From contig NZ_WHVL01000003.1 in the NCBI RefSeq assembly GCF_020622355.1, positions 248,001 through 312,000 of the forward strand: 64,000 nt of DNA, in the 5' to 3' direction. The notes beneath the pieces were generated by a model. The model ran no database searches, was not told the origin of the DNA, and worked only from the letters and a program-made list of their open reading frames with translations. Of the stretch, positions 6,175-39,098 are shown one piece after another. Every line of letters starts with the position of its first letter. The first letter of the stretch is position 1. Source of the stretch: Vreelandella malpeensis. Lineage in GTDB: Bacteria > Pseudomonadota > Gammaproteobacteria > Pseudomonadales > Halomonadaceae. Made by a program: the position numbers and the translations under genes.

Positions 6175-6193
6175 GGTAATAATTCTCATTACC
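6175..6193 (+). promoter_or_regulatory. Fur box upstream of the first TonB-dependent receptor
   Basis: A 19-bp site centred in the dyad AGGTAAT-N7-ATTACCT (6174-6194). It matches the Fur consensus GATAATGATAATCATTATC at 14 of 19 positions. It ends 35 bp before the receptor ATG, inside the only AT-rich part of the gap. Confidence 0.8.
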
Positions 6194-6228
6194 TAAAACA
6201 GCGTTTCGCCTTGCCATCAGGACCCATC

Positions 6229-8331
6229 ATGCTGCCCACCCGCTCCCTCACGCTCGCGCCTGTCACCCTCGCCGTTCTTCTGGCATCGTTTGGTGCCCAG
6301 GCTCAAACCGCCTCGAGCAAGCTTGCGACCGTCACGGTGACCGCCCAGCAGGCGGCCACCAAGGTCGCCACCCCCTTTCTGGAAACACCCCAGAGCGTCT
6401 CGACCATCACCGACGAGCAGATGCAACGCCGTGGCGTCGATACCGTTCAGCGCGCCGCCGACTACACCCCCGGGGTGTACACCAATCAGGTCGGCGCCTC
6501 CAACCGCTTCGACTACCTCGTGCTGCGCGGCTTTTCCGACGGCAGCCTGAGCAACACGTTTCTCGACGGCCTGAAACTGATGGGCGACGCCAACTCCCAC
6601 AGCACCATGAGAATCGATCCCTGGTTTCTGGACAGTATCGAAGTGGTGCGCGGCCCGGCCTCGGTACTTTACGGGCGCGCCTCACCGGGCGGGGTGGTGG
6701 CGCTCAACAGCAAGCGCCCCGAATTCGAGCCAGGCGGCGAGCTGCGCTTTCGGGTCGGAAATAATAACCAGCGCAGCGCCGCGTTCGATGTGACCGGGCC
6801 GCTGGGCGACACGCAGCGCGTGGCGTTCCGCCTGACCGGTATCGCTCACGCCGCCGATACTCAGTTCGACCCCGCCGAAGAAGAGCGTTACGCCATCGCC
6901 CCGCGCCTGACCTGGGACATGACCGATGCCACCAGCCTGACGCTCGAAGCGTATCTACAGGACGAGCCCGAAGGCGGCTACCACTCCGGCGTGCCCTTCG
7001 AGGGAGCCGTGGTACCCCGCAATGGACGCAGGATCAGCAACAACTTCTTCGATGGCGAGCCGGCATACGACGCCTACGAGCGTACCCAGCGGATGTTCGG
7101 CTACTCGTTGGAGCATCGCTTCAACGAGCAGGTCACCGGTCGTCAGCTGCTGCGCTACCTGAACTCGGACGTGCTCCTCAACCAGCCCTATGGATTCGGC
7201 TGGACATCGCCCACGTCCGACGAACTGACGCGCTACTACTCGGGGGCCGAGGAGTCGCTGGAGGCCTGGACCGTCGATAACCAGCTCGAAGCCCACCTCG
7301 ACAGTGGGGCCATGGCGCATACACTGCTCTTCGGCGTGGATTACCAGCGCCGCGAGAACGATGTCGCCTGGCCCTCGGGCGCGTTTCCATCGCTGAACGC
7401 CTTCGATCCGATCTATGGCGTCGACCCGAGCGAGGTCACCTTCTACGCGCCGGTTCGCGAGCGTCACCAAATCGAGCAGACCGGCATCTACCTGCAGGAT
7501 CAGATCGCTTTGGACAGCTGGCGCTTCACCCTGGGCGGGCGCTACGACTGGGTCAGCATCGACAACACCAACCGCGACACCAACGATAACAGCTCGCTCA
7601 GCGATACCCAGCTCAGCGGCCGCGCCGGCGTGGTTTACCTGTTCGACAACGGCGTGGCGCCCTACGTGAGCTACTCCACCGCCTTCACGCCCACCAGCTT
7701 CGTTGACGAGCGTGGCGATTTGCTCGCCCCCATGGAAGGCGAGCAGTGGGAGGCCGGCGTCAAGGTCCAGCCCGAGGGCAGCCAAAGCCAGTTCAGCGCC
7801 GCCGTTTTCCACATCCGCCAGGAGAACGTGGCGACCAAGGAACAGCCGACCGACCCCTACCGCGCCGTCGGCGAGATCGAGTCCCGGGGCTTGGAGCTCG
7901 AAGCGCAGACCCGGCTCACCGACACGCTGTCGCTGCAGGCGGGTTACAGCTTCACCGATATCACTTATGCCAAGAGCGACGACGGCAACGAAGGCAACAA
8001 TGCCATCTACGCGCCACGTCATCAGCTTCAGGCCTGGGGCCACTACGCACCCACCGATGGCCTGCTGAGCGGCATGGACGCAGGCCTGGGCGTTCGCCAC
8101 TACGCCGACATCGCCGCCGACCGCGCCAACACCGAGAAGGTACCCGACTACACCTTGGTCGACGCCACGGTGGGCTACGACTGGGGCCAGCAGGGCTTCG
8201 AAGGCGTTGAGACCCGCCTCAACGTCAACAACGTGCTGGACAAGGAGTACGTCGCCACCTGCAACTCGCTCGACTACTGCTACTTCGGCGCAGAGCGCAG
8301 CGTGACCGCCAGCGTCCACTACCGTTTCTGA
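6229..8331 (+). CDS. TonB-dependent siderophore receptor (FhuA/FoxA type)
   Basis: 700 residues from the ATG at 6229, which follows CAGGA. It is an outer-membrane ferric-siderophore transporter energised by TonB. A signal peptide (cleavage near AQAQT) is followed by a plug domain (about 40-165, with the DSIEVVRGPASVLYG motif) and a 22-strand beta-barrel ending in Phe (VHYRF). The C-terminal signature DKEYVATCN...CYFGAERSV is typical of the ferrichrome/ferrioxamine receptor family, so a hydroxamate-type ligand is likely but not proven. It has a Fur box, follows a PchR-like regulator and precedes a FhuD-like gene. Confidence 0.9.
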   Translation: MLPTRSLTLAPVTLAVLLASFGAQAQTASSKLATVTVTAQQAATKVATPFLETPQSVSTITDEQMQRRGVDTVQRAADYTPGVYTNQVGASNRFDYLVLRGFSDGSLSNTFLDGLKLMGDANSHSTMRIDPWFLDSIEVVRGPASVLYGRASPGGVVALNSKRPEFEPGGELRFRVGNNNQRSAAFDVTGPLGDTQRVAFRLTGIAHAADTQFDPAEEERYAIAPRLTWDMTDATSLTLEAYLQDEPEGGYHSGVPFEGAVVPRNGRRISNNFFDGEPAYDAYERTQRMFGYSLEHRFNEQVTGRQLLRYLNSDVLLNQPYGFGWTSPTSDELTRYYSGAEESLEAWTVDNQLEAHLDSGAMAHTLLFGVDYQRRENDVAWPSGAFPSLNAFDPIYGVDPSEVTFYAPVRERHQIEQTGIYLQDQIALDSWRFTLGGRYDWVSIDNTNRDTNDNSSLSDTQLSGRAGVVYLFDNGVAPYVSYSTAFTPTSFVDERGDLLAPMEGEQWEAGVKVQPEGSQSQFSAAVFHIRQENVATKEQPTDPYRAVGEIESRGLELEAQTRLTDTLSLQAGYSFTDITYAKSDDGNEGNNAIYAPRHQLQAWGHYAPTDGLLSGMDAGLGVRHYADIAADRANTEKVPDYTLVDATVGYDWGQQGFEGVETRLNVNNVLDKEYVATCNSLDYCYFGAERSVTASVHYRF

Positions 8332-8449: not shown

Positions 8450-9334
8450 ATGCGCCTGACCGCCCTTCTCGCCCGCGCCCTGCTGATGGCCACCAGCCTC
8501 GTGCCGTTCAGTGCCGCTCAGGCTCAATGGGCCACGCTGGACTGGACCATCGCCGAAACCCTCATGGCCATCGACGCACCGATCGAAGGGGTGGCCCAGA
8601 TTCCCGCCTATCACGACTGGGTGGGCGAGCCGCGCATTCCCGAGACGGTGACGGATCTGGGGCTTCGCCAGTCGCCCAACTTCGAACTGATGGCCCGCGC
8701 CGCCCCCCAGGGTTTTTTGATCTCCACCATGGCCGCGGCACTCGCCCCGAAGCTTTCGCGCATCGCGCCAGTGACCTCGCTTGCGCTCTACTCGCCCGGC
8801 GCTCAGACCTGGAGCGAGGTGCTCGACTTCACCCGAAAGCTTGGCGATATCACTCAGCGACAAACCGAAGCCGAAGCGCTGATCGACGATACCGATGCGC
8901 TGCTCGCCCGGTTGCGCCAGGACATGCCCGCCGAGCCCCCGGCGCTGGTCATGATTCAGTTCATGGATGCCCGCCACGTGCGGGTATTCGGCCAGAACAG
9001 CCTCTACAGTGCCGTGCTGGATCGGTTGGGGATCGAGAATGCCTGGACGGCACCCACCAACGAGTGGGGTTTCACCCTGACGGGGATCGAGGCGCTGGCG
9101 CGCTTCGACGAGGCGACGCTGCTGATCGTCGACCCCATTCCCGCCGGGGTGGAAGAAGAGCTTGCCCGAAGCGGGCTATGGCAGCACCTGCCGGTCATCG
9201 AAGAGAACCGCGTCATTCGCCTGGCGCCAGTGTGGAGCTTCGGCGCATTACCCTCGGCCCAGCGCTTCGCCCGGGAGCTCGCCGCCGCGCTGGTGGATTC
9301 ACGCAGCGGCGAGGAGACTACCAGCGGTAGCTGA
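8450..9334 (+). CDS. FhuD-like periplasmic ferric-siderophore binding protein
   Basis: 294 residues with a Sec signal peptide (cleavage near AQAQW, residue about 25). It is a class III (TroA/FhuD-type) binding-protein fold: an N-lobe (TLDWTIAETLMAID...), a long connecting helix (about 145-165, TQRQTEAEALIDDTDALLARL) and a C-lobe (VRVFGQNSLYSAVLDRLGIENAW, typical of FhuD). It should receive an Fe-siderophore from the outer-membrane receptors. No FhuB permease or FhuC ATPase gene is adjacent, so its inner-membrane partner must be encoded elsewhere. The 3' end overlaps the convergent second receptor gene by 17 bp. Confidence 0.85.
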   Translation: MRLTALLARALLMATSLVPFSAAQAQWATLDWTIAETLMAIDAPIEGVAQIPAYHDWVGEPRIPETVTDLGLRQSPNFELMARAAPQGFLISTMAAALAPKLSRIAPVTSLALYSPGAQTWSEVLDFTRKLGDITQRQTEAEALIDDTDALLARLRQDMPAEPPALVMIQFMDARHVRVFGQNSLYSAVLDRLGIENAWTAPTNEWGFTLTGIEALARFDEATLLIVDPIPAGVEEELARSGLWQHLPVIEENRVIRLAPVWSFGALPSAQRFARELAAALVDSRSGEETTSGS

Positions 9335-11366: not shown

Positions 11367-11403
11367 GGAAGCAGTCTCTGTTGGAAGCAGGCAGGCAAAA
11401 AAT

Positions 11404-11422
11404 GAGAATAATTGTCATTGAT
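11404..11422 (-). promoter_or_regulatory. Fur-box-like site upstream of the second receptor
   Basis: GAGAATAATTGTCATTGAT on the plus strand, 12 of 19 matches to the Fur consensus. It is 38 bp upstream of the receptor ATG (11366) and shares the core GAGAATAAT/CATT with the other Fur sites of the window. Confidence 0.65.
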
Positions 11423-35327: not shown

Positions 35328-36436
35328 GCCCGCGCCAGGCCAGCGACGGCGGCAAGTGCAGCAAAGCTTGCCACCGCTACCGTGGCCGAGAACTGATCCA
35401 TCAGCAAGCCGAACACCGGGGCGCCAGCGGTCTGGCCGATAGCAATGGTCAGAAAGCCGACCATCAGCCCGGTGGCCGGGCGGTGGGAAAGCGCCTTCAC
35501 GCCCCACACCAGATAGACCCCGGTCACCGTGATGTAGGCGACCCCGAACAGCGCCCCACCAAGCAGCGCAAGCATGGGCGTGGTATTGACCATACCCACC
35601 ATCAGCGTGCCGGCGACCAATGCGGCGAGAAACACCCGATGCACGCGATTGATGCCAAAGCGCTCGACCAGACTCCCCGCTGCGGCGCCAGCCATGCCCG
35701 CAGCGCCGATGGCGATCCATAAAAGCCCTGCCCCGAAACTACCCCAGTCGAGGCTCAGCGCCACCAGCTGCCCGCCGAAGGACCACACCGCCGTACTCGC
35801 CGCCCCCAACAGAAACGACGCCGCGATCAGGCGCTTGAGTGCCCCGGTCAACGGCGGCAGGCGGGCGGCGTCGCGGGAGCGGTTCGCCGAGGCCGGCACG
35901 CAGAAAAATGTCAGCAGCGCGAAAGCGAAGGCGATCGCGGCGAAGCCGGCGAAGGCGAGGCGCCACTGCTCGCCCATCAGCAGCGCTACCGGCCCGGAGA
36001 GCACCACCCCGGCGCCGGTACCTGCGTTGATCACGGTGTTGGTGGCGCTCTGGCGATGCCTCTCGACGATGGCGGCGACTGCCGCAGCCATCGGCGGCGA
36101 GGCAAGCCCGGTGCTCGAGCCCGCCAGCATCACCGCCGCCGCCAGCCACCAGGGCGAGTTTGCAAAGGCGATACCCACCATACCGAAGGCCGCCACCAGC
36201 GCTGCCAGCAGCGCCACGAACCGCGGCCCTGCCCGCTCGGTAAGGTAGGCCGACAGCAGGATGGCCACACAGTAGCCCAGAAAGGAGCCGCCGGAGATCA
36301 GCCCGCTCAGGGTCGACGAGAGCGAAAGCGTCGCGTCGATCTGCGGCAGGAAAAGCCCGAAGGCGAAGCGCGCGAAGCCGTAGCACACTGCGATCAACCC
36401 AAAGCCGAAACCGCCAAGATACAGGGCGGGGCTCAT
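35324..36436 (-). CDS. MFS transporter controlled by the adjacent TetR
   Basis: 370 residues from the ATG at 36436, which overlaps the tetR stop as ATGA. Twelve membrane helices of the major facilitator family. The N-terminal segment [25 protein letters not shown] recalls the YbfB/cyanate-like carriers, and [10 protein letters not shown] is a degenerate form of the loop 2-3 motif. Co-transcribed with a TetR repressor, so it is most simply an exporter induced by its substrate. The substrate cannot be deduced. Confidence 0.78.
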
Positions 36437-36957
36437 GAGCACGCCCCCGCCAACAGCGCGACCGCCGCCTGACGGGCGGCGGCGACCGCCTGTTCGCCGC
36501 GATAGGCCGCGGCGGCGGCGGCGCCCTCGAACAGCACGATGATCTGCTCGGTCAACGCGGCATCGCTATCTCCGGTTTCTTGCTCGACCAGCCGGGCGAT
36601 CCGCTTTGCCATCCGCATCTTGTGTGCCAGTACCGCCTCCTTGATTTCCGGCGTATCGCCTCCGGTCTCGCTCAGCGCCCGCAGGAACAGGCAGCCGCGT
36701 CGCCCTTCCACGCGCCCCCACTCCTCCAGCGCGTTGAACAGCGCCTCGATGGTGTCGTCCTCCATAAACTGCGCAAAGCGCCGATCGCGCTCGTCGAGTA
36801 CCCGGGCGATCAGGGCATTCTTGCTGCCGACATGCTTGTAAAGCGTACGACTCGAAACGCCCGCGCCCTGGGTGAGCTTGTCCATGCCCGTGGCAGTGAA
36901 GCCGTGGCGGTCGAAAAGTGTTTCGGACGAGCTCAGGATCTTGTCCATTGTGGTCAT
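36433..36957 (-). CDS. TetR-family repressor
   Basis: 174 residues, shorter than the usual 190-210. N-terminal TetR helix-turn-helix (about 5-50: ILSSSETLFDRHGFTATGMDKLTQGAGVSSRTLYKHVGSKNAL with the standard TLYKHVGSK recognition helix) and an all-helical ligand domain ending in an Ala-rich helix (FEGAAAAAAYRGEQAVAAARQA). It is first in a two-gene operon with an MFS carrier and is preceded by two tandem palindromes that are probably its operators, giving autorepression. Confidence 0.88.
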   Translation of the reverse strand: MTTMDKILSSSETLFDRHGFTATGMDKLTQGAGVSSRTLYKHVGSKNALIARVLDERDRRFAQFMEDDTIEALFNALEEWGRVEGRRGCLFLRALSETGGDTPEIKEAVLAHKMRMAKRIARLVEQETGDSDAALTEQIIVLFEGAAAAAAYRGEQAVAAARQAAVALLAGACS

Positions 36958-36973
36958 ATTAACATCTCATCAA

Positions 36974-37010
36974 GTAAAACGATCACTTTACTGTAAAACG
37001 ATCGCTTTAC
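36974..37010 (-). promoter_or_regulatory. Tandem TetR operators
   Basis: Two copies of an 18-bp dyad, GTAAAACGATCRCTTTAC, at 36974-36991 and 36993-37010, with a 19-bp period. Arms are GTAAA/TTTAC around a CGATCG-like centre. They begin 17 bp upstream of the tetR ATG, in an AT-rich promoter gap. Two dimers would bind almost the same DNA face shifted by about two turns. Confidence 0.8.
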
Positions 37011-37140
37011 TTCGTCAAATAGCACTTGTGTCGGCGCAAGCACTCACGGTGTCTTTGCTTCATAAAGGTTTTAAGTGGAAGCGTTATCGTGGGAGAGAGC
37101 GCAACATGAAAAAGATCTCGCACAAGGCGCAGGTAAACGC

Positions 37141-37278
37141 TTACCGTCCCTGGCGGCGGCAGCGCTCGGAGCAGTAGACGACGTTGTCCCAGTCCCGCGC
37201 CCACTTCTTGCGCCAGGCAAAGGGCTTCTGGCAAACGGGGCAGGTTTTGGTCGGCAGATGGGGCTTTTTATGGACCAT
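37141..37278 (-). CDS. DUF2256 zinc-ribbon-like mini-protein
   Basis: 45 residues from the ATG at 37278. The sequence [20 protein letters not shown] then [20 protein letters not shown] fits the DUF2256 family closely. Four Cys in the pattern CPVC...YCSERC suggest a single zinc site. Family function is unknown; members are often found near cryptochrome/photolyase or DUF1365-type genes, none of which are here. An upstream in-frame start has no support. Confidence 0.82.
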
Positions 37279-37369
37279 GAGGAGTGGGCTCGCGTACGGA
37301 ATATTGCTCAGTCTAGACACGCTGCCCCCGCCGACGGGGCGGTCAGCGCTTAAAATTTTCGGAAGGCAC

Positions 37370-37398
37370 AAAAAAGAAAGCCACTCCAAGGGAGTGGC
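37370..37398 (-). terminator. Terminator of the small RNA
   Basis: GCCACTCC pairs with GGAGTGGC (37398-37391 with 37387-37380) around a 3-nt loop. The minus strand continues TTTCTTTTTT (37379-37370). It is strong and oriented only for minus-strand transcription. Confidence 0.92.
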
Positions 37399-37484
37399 AA
37401 AAGACCGTGACTAGCAATGAGAGGGAGAAACCATGACAGAAAAAGCCCTGCTGTCCTGGTTGTGACGTCTCATCAAACGCCAGC
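37370..37484 (-). ncRNA. Candidate Fur-repressed small RNA (RyhB/PrrF-like)
   Basis: Predicted 115-nt RNA between a Fur-overlapped promoter and a rho-independent terminator, in a region with no protein gene on this strand. Predicted parts, 5' to 3': a stem-loop with arms 37459-37451 and 37439-37431 (9 bp, one mismatch); a CU-rich single-stranded part UUUCUCCCUCUC (37430-37419), complementary to Shine-Dalgarno-type sequence; then CAUUGCU (37419-37413), a 7-mer also present in the target-pairing core of E. coli RyhB; and a terminator hairpin. The role expected by analogy is Hfq-dependent repression of iron-using proteins when iron is scarce. Existence is inferred, not measured. Confidence 0.78.
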
Positions 37485-37486
37485 AA

Positions 37487-37519
37487 GAACAATATAATCA
37501 TTCTCATTTAATTCGTCAA
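37487..37519 (-). promoter_or_regulatory. Sigma-70 promoter with overlapping Fur box for the small RNA
   Basis: Minus strand: TTGACG (37519-37514), a 17-bp spacer and TATATT (37496-37491), each 5 of 6 to consensus. The Fur-like 19-mer at 37487-37505 (14 of 19 matches read on plus, with AATCATTCTC at its strong end) covers the -10 and the spacer. Predicted start of transcription is about 37484. Confidence 0.85.
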
Positions 37520-37552
37520 CACGAATGCGAATAGTTTTTATTTATTTTTTTC

Positions 37553-38470
37553 CTAGCCGCTCACCAGCTTCAGCCAGAACGGTAGGGTCAGCATGGCGAG
37601 CAAGGTCTGACCGGTGATGATCGCCGCCATCAGCTCCGCGTCGCCGCCGAGCTGGCGGGCAAGGATGTAGGCGGAGGTCGCGGTGGGGAGTGCGGCGAAC
37701 AGCAGCGCCACGTCGCGGCTCAGCGGGTCCAGCCCGAACGCCCAGGCGAGTGCCAGCACGATGACCGGCATCAGCGCGAGCTTGGCGACGTTGGTGGTCA
37801 GGGTGCCACGATCCAGGCGAAAAAGCGCCGCCGGGCGCAGCGCCACGCCGACCGCCACCAGCCCCAGCGGCAGCGCCGCGCGGCCGAGAAGATCAAAAGC
37901 GCTTTCGCTCCAGCCGGGCAGGCCGATGCCGGTCAGGTTCAGAAAGATCCCCGCCAGGCACGCCAGGATCAGGGGATTCTTGACCAGCGCCAGCACGCTC
38001 GAACGCAAGCTCGATGTCCCAAGCGTTCCCGCCTTGATGAAGCTTGCCACGCACAGCACGTTGACTACCGGCACCATCACCGCCACGGCTACCGCCGCCG
38101 TGGTCACGCCGAGCTCGCCGTGCAGAGCGCCGGCGCCAGCCACGCCCACGTAGGTGTTGAAGCGAATCGCCCCCTGGAACACGGAGGTGAACGCCGGCGA
38201 GGGCAGCGCCAGCCAGTCGCGCAGGCGCCACAGCAGCAGCGTGAGGATCGCAATGGCGCCCAGCAGCACGCCGGTCAACCGCCCCACCGGCACTTGGCTC
38301 ACGTCCGCCGTGGCCAGTGTCGCCACCAGCATGGCGGGAAACAGCACGAAGTAGATGAGCTTTTCCATCTGCGCCCAGAACTCGACGCTCGGCCAGCGCC
38401 GGTAGCCGATGGCTGCTCCCAGCAGAATCAGCAGGAAAAGCGGTCCCAGCGCCGCCGTGATGCTCTGCAT
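37553..38470 (-). CDS. AEC-family transporter (auxin efflux carrier-like)
   Basis: 305 residues, ten predicted membrane helices in two five-helix halves. The N-terminal half has GAAIGYRRWPSVEFWAQMEKLIYFVLFPAMLV and the second half starts LKNPLILACLAGIFLNLTGIGLP (family form VKNPLIIA). Family members export or import small carboxylates such as malate or auxin-like acids. Substrate unknown. No partner gene; the Fur-regulated small RNA promoter lies directly after its stop on the same strand, so read-through could reach the RNA terminator. Confidence 0.83.
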   Translation of the reverse strand: MQSITAALGPLFLLILLGAAIGYRRWPSVEFWAQMEKLIYFVLFPAMLVATLATADVSQVPVGRLTGVLLGAIAILTLLLWRLRDWLALPSPAFTSVFQGAIRFNTYVGVAGAGALHGELGVTTAAVAVAVMVPVVNVLCVASFIKAGTLGTSSLRSSVLALVKNPLILACLAGIFLNLTGIGLPGWSESAFDLLGRAALPLGLVAVGVALRPAALFRLDRGTLTTNVAKLALMPVIVLALAWAFGLDPLSRDVALLFAALPTATSAYILARQLGGDAELMAAIITGQTLLAMLTLPFWLKLVSG

Positions 38471-38597
38471 GGCAATTCCTTGTTATCGTGAGCTCGCCCG
38501 AAGGCCCCATGCGACATCCTGGCCTGCCCGGCCGGGTCGCGTTTGCTGCTACCATGCGGCTATCTTTCGCCGCCTGGCCGTGCAGGACCATTCTGCC

Positions 38598-39098
38598 ATG
38601 AAAAAAACCACGTCTTCGGGATACTTTCTGGGTTTTCCGCTGCTCAACGTGCTCATCCTGATCACGGCCATAGCGCTGATGGTGTGCCTGGGTTATGGGC
38701 TGAACAGCTGGTTGCGCGGCGAGGAGAACATCCGCTGGGTCGCGCCCGACCCCGGCTGCGACTTGCACGCAGCCACCTGCCACGCCTCGCTCGGCGACGC
38801 GGGTTTCACGTTCAGCGTGGATGCCGATGGCGCCATCGAGGCGCTCACCGCGCTGCCGCTGGAGGTCAAGGTGGAAGGTGTGGAGGCGAGCCAGGTCAGC
38901 GTCGAGTTCGTCGGCCGCGACATGGAGATGGGACTTCATCGCTTCACCCTGGTGGCCACCGCGCCGGGGCATTTCAACGGACAGGGTCAGGTCGGCCTGT
39001 GCACTCAGCGCGTCATGCCCTGGCGCGCCCGTGTCATACTGAGTACGCCTGAGGGTAAAATCGGCAGCTGGTTCGATTTCGACGTTACCCGGAGTTAA
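38598..39098 (+). CDS. FixH-like single-span membrane protein, partner of Sco
   Basis: 166 residues from the ATG at 38598. One N-terminal membrane helix (about 14-36, LLNVLILITAIALMVCLGYGL) and a periplasmic beta-rich domain. The C-terminal part (GLHRFTLVATAPGHFNGQGQVGLCTQRVMPWRARVIL) resembles FixH/YtkA-type domains linked to copper oxidase assembly. The domain carries Cys residues at CDLHAATC and LCTQ. The sco gene begins 3 bp after its stop, so the two are one operon. A role in copper delivery to a terminal oxidase is inferred. Confidence 0.65.
   Translation: MKKTTSSGYFLGFPLLNVLILITAIALMVCLGYGLNSWLRGEENIRWVAPDPGCDLHAATCHASLGDAGFTFSVDADGAIEALTALPLEVKVEGVEASQVSVEFVGRDMEMGLHRFTLVATAPGHFNGQGQVGLCTQRVMPWRARVILSTPEGKIGSWFDFDVTRS

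Follow-up and report, generated by a model that had tools for sequence, protein, structure and literature searches.

Background

The enterobacterial small RNA RyhB contains the letters CAUUGCU in its pairing core, and ArrF of Azotobacter is a Fur-controlled, PrrF-like RNA. ArrF acts on sodB, as far as the title of a cited work tells. PrrF, the iron-sparing RNA of Pseudomonas, itself has no sequence homology with RyhB; tandem prrF copies are known in P. aeruginosa, where PrrH arises by read-through of the prrF1 terminator into prrF2 (PMC4211561). The second copy, prrF2, has its own promoter (excerpts of PMC13104616), and deletion of prrF in P. aeruginosa affects sdhCDAB, acnA and acnB among other genes (excerpts of PMC2851614). 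Engineers have imported PrrF scaffolds from Pseudomonas into Halomonas bluephagenesis, according to an excerpted source, and therefore a native relative could cross-talk. Within excerpts of the literature searched, outside which most subscription papers lie, no native PrrF is described in Halomonas or its family; where PrrF is named together with Halomonas, it is an imported Pseudomonas scaffold or a mention in passing.

Here we report an element on the minus strand (37519-37370) of a 64-kb window, by which we mean the whole stretch of DNA analysed. It very probably encodes, in one copy, a divergent small RNA of the PrrF type, repressed by Fur and sparing iron through Hfq-aided pairing with mRNAs, and as such the likely iron-sparing regulator of bacteria that serve as an industrial chassis.

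Organization of the locus

The element lies between the gene of an AEC-type transporter upstream (PF03547; 38470-37553, minus strand) and a DUF2256 gene of 46 aa about 90 bp downstream (PF10013; 37281-37141, minus strand). The initial annotation, made from the letters of the DNA, had placed here TTGACG-N17-TATATT, a sigma-70 promoter the coordinates and letters of which proved correct (37491..37519, minus strand; -35 TTGACG at 37519-37514, -10 TATATT at 37496-37491; score 10/12), and which is kept in the full-length copies of the genus. The Fur-like 19-mer it described was borne out at 37487-37505 (14/19, scored against a Fur consensus); with the motif AATGAGAATGATTA at 37508-37495, it makes up a putative Fur box over the spacer and the -10 (37487..37508, minus strand). 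The predicted small RNA of ~115 nt (37370..37484), with its start placed from the -10 and its end from the T-run, comprises stem-loop 1 (37463..37482), stem-loop 2 (37430..37460; ACCA, GACAG ... CUGUC, UGGU), a CU-rich pairing region UUUCUCCCUCUCAUUGCUAGUCACGGUC (37403..37430) that aligns with the PrrF core, and an intrinsic terminator (37370..37398), all on the minus strand. The CU-rich stretch with CAUUGCU is present as described, and so is the 8-bp terminator hairpin (37398-37380, then TTTCTTTTTT); the proposed 5' stem-loop is real, with 8 pairs in the tested structure instead of 9. The strand had been said to carry no protein gene, and none is credible there: the list of open reading frames has at this place a frame of 54 aa (37507-37343) and one of 82 aa, which is the DUF2256 gene (46 aa) read from an early TTG.

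Scans of 36000-39000 on both strands returned 2 promoter-like sites with 0.5 expected and 7 terminator-like sites with 3.1 expected, and therefore each scan is weak by itself. A 14/19 match to the Fur consensus arises in 0.5% of trials that shuffle the local 80 bases, and matches as good occur at four other places in the window (1162, 6175, 11398 and 43373). A sharper motif, AATGAGAATNATTA, has three sites in the 64 kb at one mismatch or fewer with 0 expected; since the motif was picked after its three sites were known, this count serves to calibrate it rather than to test it blindly. One site (6177-6190, minus strand) is just upstream of a TonB-dependent receptor gene (6211-8331, plus strand), and another (11401-11414, plus strand, one mismatch) just upstream of a second such gene (11366-9318, minus strand). 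A Peripla_BP_2 gene (8450-9334, plus strand) sits between the two receptor genes, and the group is probably a siderophore uptake cluster. At the element, a Fur box over the promoter, which is a trait of PrrF, is present by its letters and kept in the genus alignment, and the genome itself encodes Hfq and two FUR-family genes. As judged from sequence, the reality of the element is settled by the sharper Fur motif together with conservation in the genus.

Assignment to the PrrF family

At gathering cut-offs, Rfam reports nothing anywhere in the whole 64-kb window. With a query limited to 261 bases, the Rfam PrrF model (RF00444) aligns over 1-150 of 150, promoter included, at 42 bits (E 4.4e-6); the gathering cut-off of this model is 90 bits, which is an annotation threshold and not a biological property. 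A family-wide search with stricter filters, which missed our own genome, found PrrF matches at E<=0.01 in 167 of 275 family genomes, spread over 23 of 24 genera; 108 genomes had no match at that level, none of the 275 reached 90 bits, and none of 14 control genomes matched. We speak of a divergent homologue because 42 bits is below the 90-bit cut-off and no family genome attains it.

A model built from 27 genus copies (R1) gave 39 matches in the 30 best loci of the family-wide PrrF search, and it matched 30 of 293 genomes of the order, 18 of them outside the family. Among these 18 loci is L242, which Rfam assigns to PrrF with 149 bits; the R1 match to it is weak (E 0.0035), and in an alignment of family loci with selected loci of the order, intermediate sequences join L242 to the copy in the window. 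Our own genome has one PrrF-like RNA gene, and both the rho-independent terminator and the intergenic location of PrrF are found at the element. On this homology, the element is a divergent homologue of the Pseudomonas iron-sparing RNA PrrF, kept across the genus, and a well-supported member of a known RNA family that was previously hidden in this family of bacteria. The range of PrrF widens to 23 of the 24 sampled genera of the family, where the Rfam cut-off hides it. A locus in another family of the order (L230, genome G523) has three PrrF-like copies with a spacing of exactly 277 bases.

Conservation and RNA structure

Loss of the element in close relatives was looked for, and it was found to be kept in all 82 genus genomes (Vreelandella/Halomonas; worst E 1.2e-14). 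An exact 19-base core occurs in 72 genome stretches from Halomonas, Vreelandella, Billgrantia and Halovibrio, in a collection from which records close to our own genome are possibly absent. The pairing region is near-frozen, with an identical 34-letter context in 93 of the 113 genus copies matching the core pattern. Gene order bears on the reading of the element as a regulatory leader or attenuator of the DUF2256 gene (37281-37141), not a free small RNA, for which its place on the same strand ~90 bp upstream, with an intrinsic terminator in between, would speak. The downstream neighbours, however, differ among 80 loci: at E<=1e-8, a level at which a diverged 46-aa protein could escape detection, 7 have the DUF2256 gene and 36 a dehydrogenase gene. 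On the upstream side, 78 of the 80 retain the AEC transporter. We consider a leader highly improbable and prefer a free small RNA.

The predicted fold of this small RNA beats 200 of 200 shuffles (z -3.07). For covariation, a structure drawn by hand, with 25 pairs in three helices, was tested on 27 dissimilar copies out of 98 distinct full-length ones, four loci having been removed by hand. The helices are paired in 98.0% of cells compared with 94.7% in shuffles, and changes on both sides of a pair are found in 29 cells over 9 pairs compared with 7.4 in shuffles, with 0 of 500 shuffles as high; they fall on 5 of 8 pairs in stem-loop 1, 2 of 9 in stem-loop 2 (paired in 99.2% of cells) and 2 of 8 in the terminator. 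The count of pair types is ordinary, being equalled by 123 of 500 shuffles, and slid-partner controls bring the pairing down to 34-51%. The covariance search in related genomes that the initial annotation suggested has thus come out in its favour, with compensatory changes in the stems and with promoter, pairing region and hairpin kept.

The conserved piece might instead be the gene of a small protein, either on the plus strand, where a mini-ORF encodes MTEKALLSWL (37433..37465) with GAGGGAG upstream of its ATG, or on the sense strand, where a frame reads MVSPSHC in 99 units (among the eight commonest kinds). But the length of the plus-strand frame ranges between 4 and 102 codons among the 113 units that have its ATG, which is missing in 6 of 119, the sense frame lies in nucleotide-invariant sequence with no ribosome site clear by eye, and the stems covary as RNA. 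A small protein is very unlikely on either strand; the mini-ORF, which is not conserved, is judged not to be a gene, and is, as had been proposed, a by-product of the conserved pairing region.

Two further structures were considered and given up. An RNAalifold consensus that pairs the Fur box with the pairing region was set aside because the promoter is untranscribed and those pairs hardly vary. In the predicted minimum of our own copy, stem-loop 1 folds back on the pairing region (37416-37474), with GAUGAGA of the former paired to UCUCAUU of the latter, a fold favoured by 5 kcal/mol; the idea of a conserved switch, with stem-loop 1 masking the pairing region, was dropped, as no more than 28 of 94 copies are predicted to fold in this way.

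The rewritten pairing core

For reading of the core, the 30 best-scoring family loci were supplemented with loci from the remaining genera. Rfam PrrF has the core CAUCA(A/G)GCU, as do almost all of the 20 other genera that were read; their loci have CAUCAAGCU with one variant, CAUCUAGCU (L406), and in some an extra CAU. Loci with UCUCCUCAUCAAGCUA(A/G)UCACGG or a near variant were found in 19 of these 20 genera; in one more genus (L404) the core pattern found no match, and the second copy at L042 has diverged. In L242, the high-scoring PrrF locus, the core region has the letters UCUCCUCAUCAGGCUAAUCACGG and CAUCAGGCU. CUCAUUG is restricted to the genus of the window and one neighbouring genus (six loci, L219 and L396-L400), in graded variants. 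The pairing regions rewritten by degrees in these six loci include UCUCCUCCUCAUUG, UCUCCCCCUCAUUG and UCUCCCUCUCAUUG, and may show the order in which the core changed.

These readings also bear on the link to RyhB made in the initial annotation. An orthologue of enterobacterial RyhB would account for CAUUGCU in the pairing region, a feature of RyhB, and for the similar plan of Fur promoter, CU-rich stretch and terminator. Yet the Rfam matches of the element up to E 10 include PrrF and lack RyhB (RF00057), and CAUUGCU is missing from the loci of the 20 other family genera; we regard such orthology as next to impossible. Being confined to two genera, CAUUGCU is therefore a recent local change, and on the sequences compared it is derived in this lineage and not shared with RyhB by descent. 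Of the earlier proposal, a Fur-controlled iron-sparing RNA of the PrrF type is supported by homology, conservation and covariation, and the RyhB connection finds no support. The two rewritten genera, set against 20 unrewritten ones, offer a natural experiment on the co-evolution of a small RNA and its targets.

Candidate targets and proposed mechanism

Seven candidate genes came from families fixed beforehand on what is known of the targets of PrrF and RyhB, and leuC was added to them. The names acnA, acnB, bfr, dps, leuC and catalase are presumptive, given by Pfam family and length; besides the aconitase genes scored, our own genome has two further members of that family. Complementarity was scored within -60..+30 against 55 window genes, and for the seven candidates also against 2000 shuffled pairing regions. 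By uninterrupted pairing, none of the 55 background genes is as good as acnB or catalase, 1 is as good as acnA, 3 as the dps-like gene, 21 as sdhC and as leuC, and 51 as sodB and as the bfr-like gene. By duplex energy the corresponding numbers are 1 for acnB, 6 for catalase, 8 for acnA, 15 for sdhC, 27 for sodB, 34 for bfr-like and 40 for dps-like. Against shuffled pairing regions, P for the longest run and with mismatches allowed is 0.05 and 0.11 for acnA, 0.06 and 0.12 for acnB, 0.13 and 0.30 for catalase, 0.15 and 0.24 for dps-like, 0.66 and 0.04 (0.043) for sdhC, 0.90 and 0.97 for bfr-like, and 0.96 and 0.86 for sodB; all seven summed, with mismatches allowed, give P 0.07.

Conservation of the sites was also considered. 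The acnB gene has ATGAGAGGGCCC, perfect to CCCUCUCAU, just before its start in 9 of 11 genomes; the site is one base short in one genome and reduced to AGAGGG in another (G033), and the sequence upstream of it mostly differs among relatives. The G033 locus, L141, has an insertion inside its pairing region, CATTGCTATTCAAGATTGCTAG, in the same genome as this weakest acnB site. For sdhC, the best candidate with mismatches allowed (12 pairs plus a wobble, flanking a single mismatch), CCGTGAATAGCAAACG is found over the GTG start in 28 of 30 loci, and in 30 of 30 allowing one T; this conservation is not specific because the 5' end of sdhC is conserved far beyond the pairing site. Some relatives have a broken catalase site, and most of the relatives listed lack the acnA site of our own genome. 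When our own genome was searched with the complement of the pairing region as a pattern, 6 places matched, one of them the RNA gene itself, versus 3 for the reversed pattern, and therefore no clear target emerged. With moderate confidence, acnB and sdhC are the best predicted targets, acnA and catalase being weaker. The targets suggested earlier are in this way supported for acn and sdh; sodB and two ferritin-family genes, one of them taken as bfr, find little support in the pairing scores.

From promoter, Fur box, conserved folded RNA, terminator, PrrF homology and the Hfq and Fur-family genes we infer transcription, a response to iron, use of Hfq and repression of targets. Iron-loaded Fur would sit over the promoter and keep the RNA gene off. 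At low iron an RNA of ~115 nt would be made, stopping at its own terminator, and its exposed CU-rich stretch, with Hfq, would pair at the ribosome-binding site or start of mRNAs whose iron enzymes are dispensable, acnB and sdhC being the likeliest and acnA and catalase perhaps among them; such pairing would block translation and so spare iron. Co-evolution would be expected to show as GAUGAGGAGA at acnB where sister genera retain UCUCCUCAUCAAG, with AUGAGAGGG confined to Vreelandella/Halomonas.

Tandem units in related genomes

A count with a tolerant pattern gave 119 units at 81 loci, which belong to 80 of the 82 genus genomes. At least two units are present in 26 of the 81 loci, and the majority of the extra units each come with a promoter. 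Fifteen extra units in six genomes are promoterless by score, with up to four behind one Fur promoter (four in L062, three each in L063 and L064, two each in L065 and L066, one in L068); the arrays at L062 2512-2995, L063 3220-3757 and L064 3127-3660 repeat pairing region and terminator behind a single Fur promoter. The 15 units score -25.8 to -33.8 in a scoring that covered one promoter type, and random 200-base segments of the same loci, the top percentile of which includes real promoters, have a mean of -30.9. Every promoterless unit lies 3' of a unit with a full promoter. At L067 (2909-3456), in a seventh genome, three tandem units have promoter scores of 49.9, 5.7 and 17.3, and by these scores the later ones look as if they were a step of promoter decay.

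Terminators of array units are mostly kept, a few being weakened, and GCUAGUCAC(G/A)G is kept while several units have drifted elsewhere in the pairing region; therefore use by read-through and decay are both possible. A variant pairing region, CTCTTTCCTTGCTAGTCAC(G/A)G, is common to later units of L062, L064, L065 and L068. The rewritten pairing region and the promoterless arrays of relatives are the features of specialist interest. As a tentative conjecture, and a rather doubtful one, Vreelandella/Halomonas may have rewritten the near-frozen heart of the PrrF pairing region with targets such as acnB following, and a sub-branch may have come to drive up to five units from one Fur promoter by stepwise terminator read-through. 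If this is true, an array would make an iron-starvation RNA graded in dose and length by read-through. The promoterless arrays would allow stepwise read-through of small RNA genes to be tested directly.

Comparison with known systems

The element shares with PrrF1 and PrrF2 a Fur box over the promoter, a 5' stem-loop, a terminator, a length predicted here at ~115 nt and a CU-rich core ending in GCUA(A/G)UCACGG. It differs from PrrF (RF00444) in the centre of the pairing region, where CUCAUCA(A/G)G is rewritten to CUCUCAUUG, and from PrrF1 and PrrF2 in its stem sequences and in being a single copy in this genome. Its likeness to RyhB (RF00057) is one of plan and of the letters CAUUGCU, and no homology between the two was found; ArrF of Azotobacter is likened to it by description. 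The tandem copies of P. aeruginosa have their counterpart in relatives of the window, for whose multi-unit arrays the read-through RNA PrrH is a precedent; prrF2 bears a promoter, whereas the later units in six relatives are promoterless by score.
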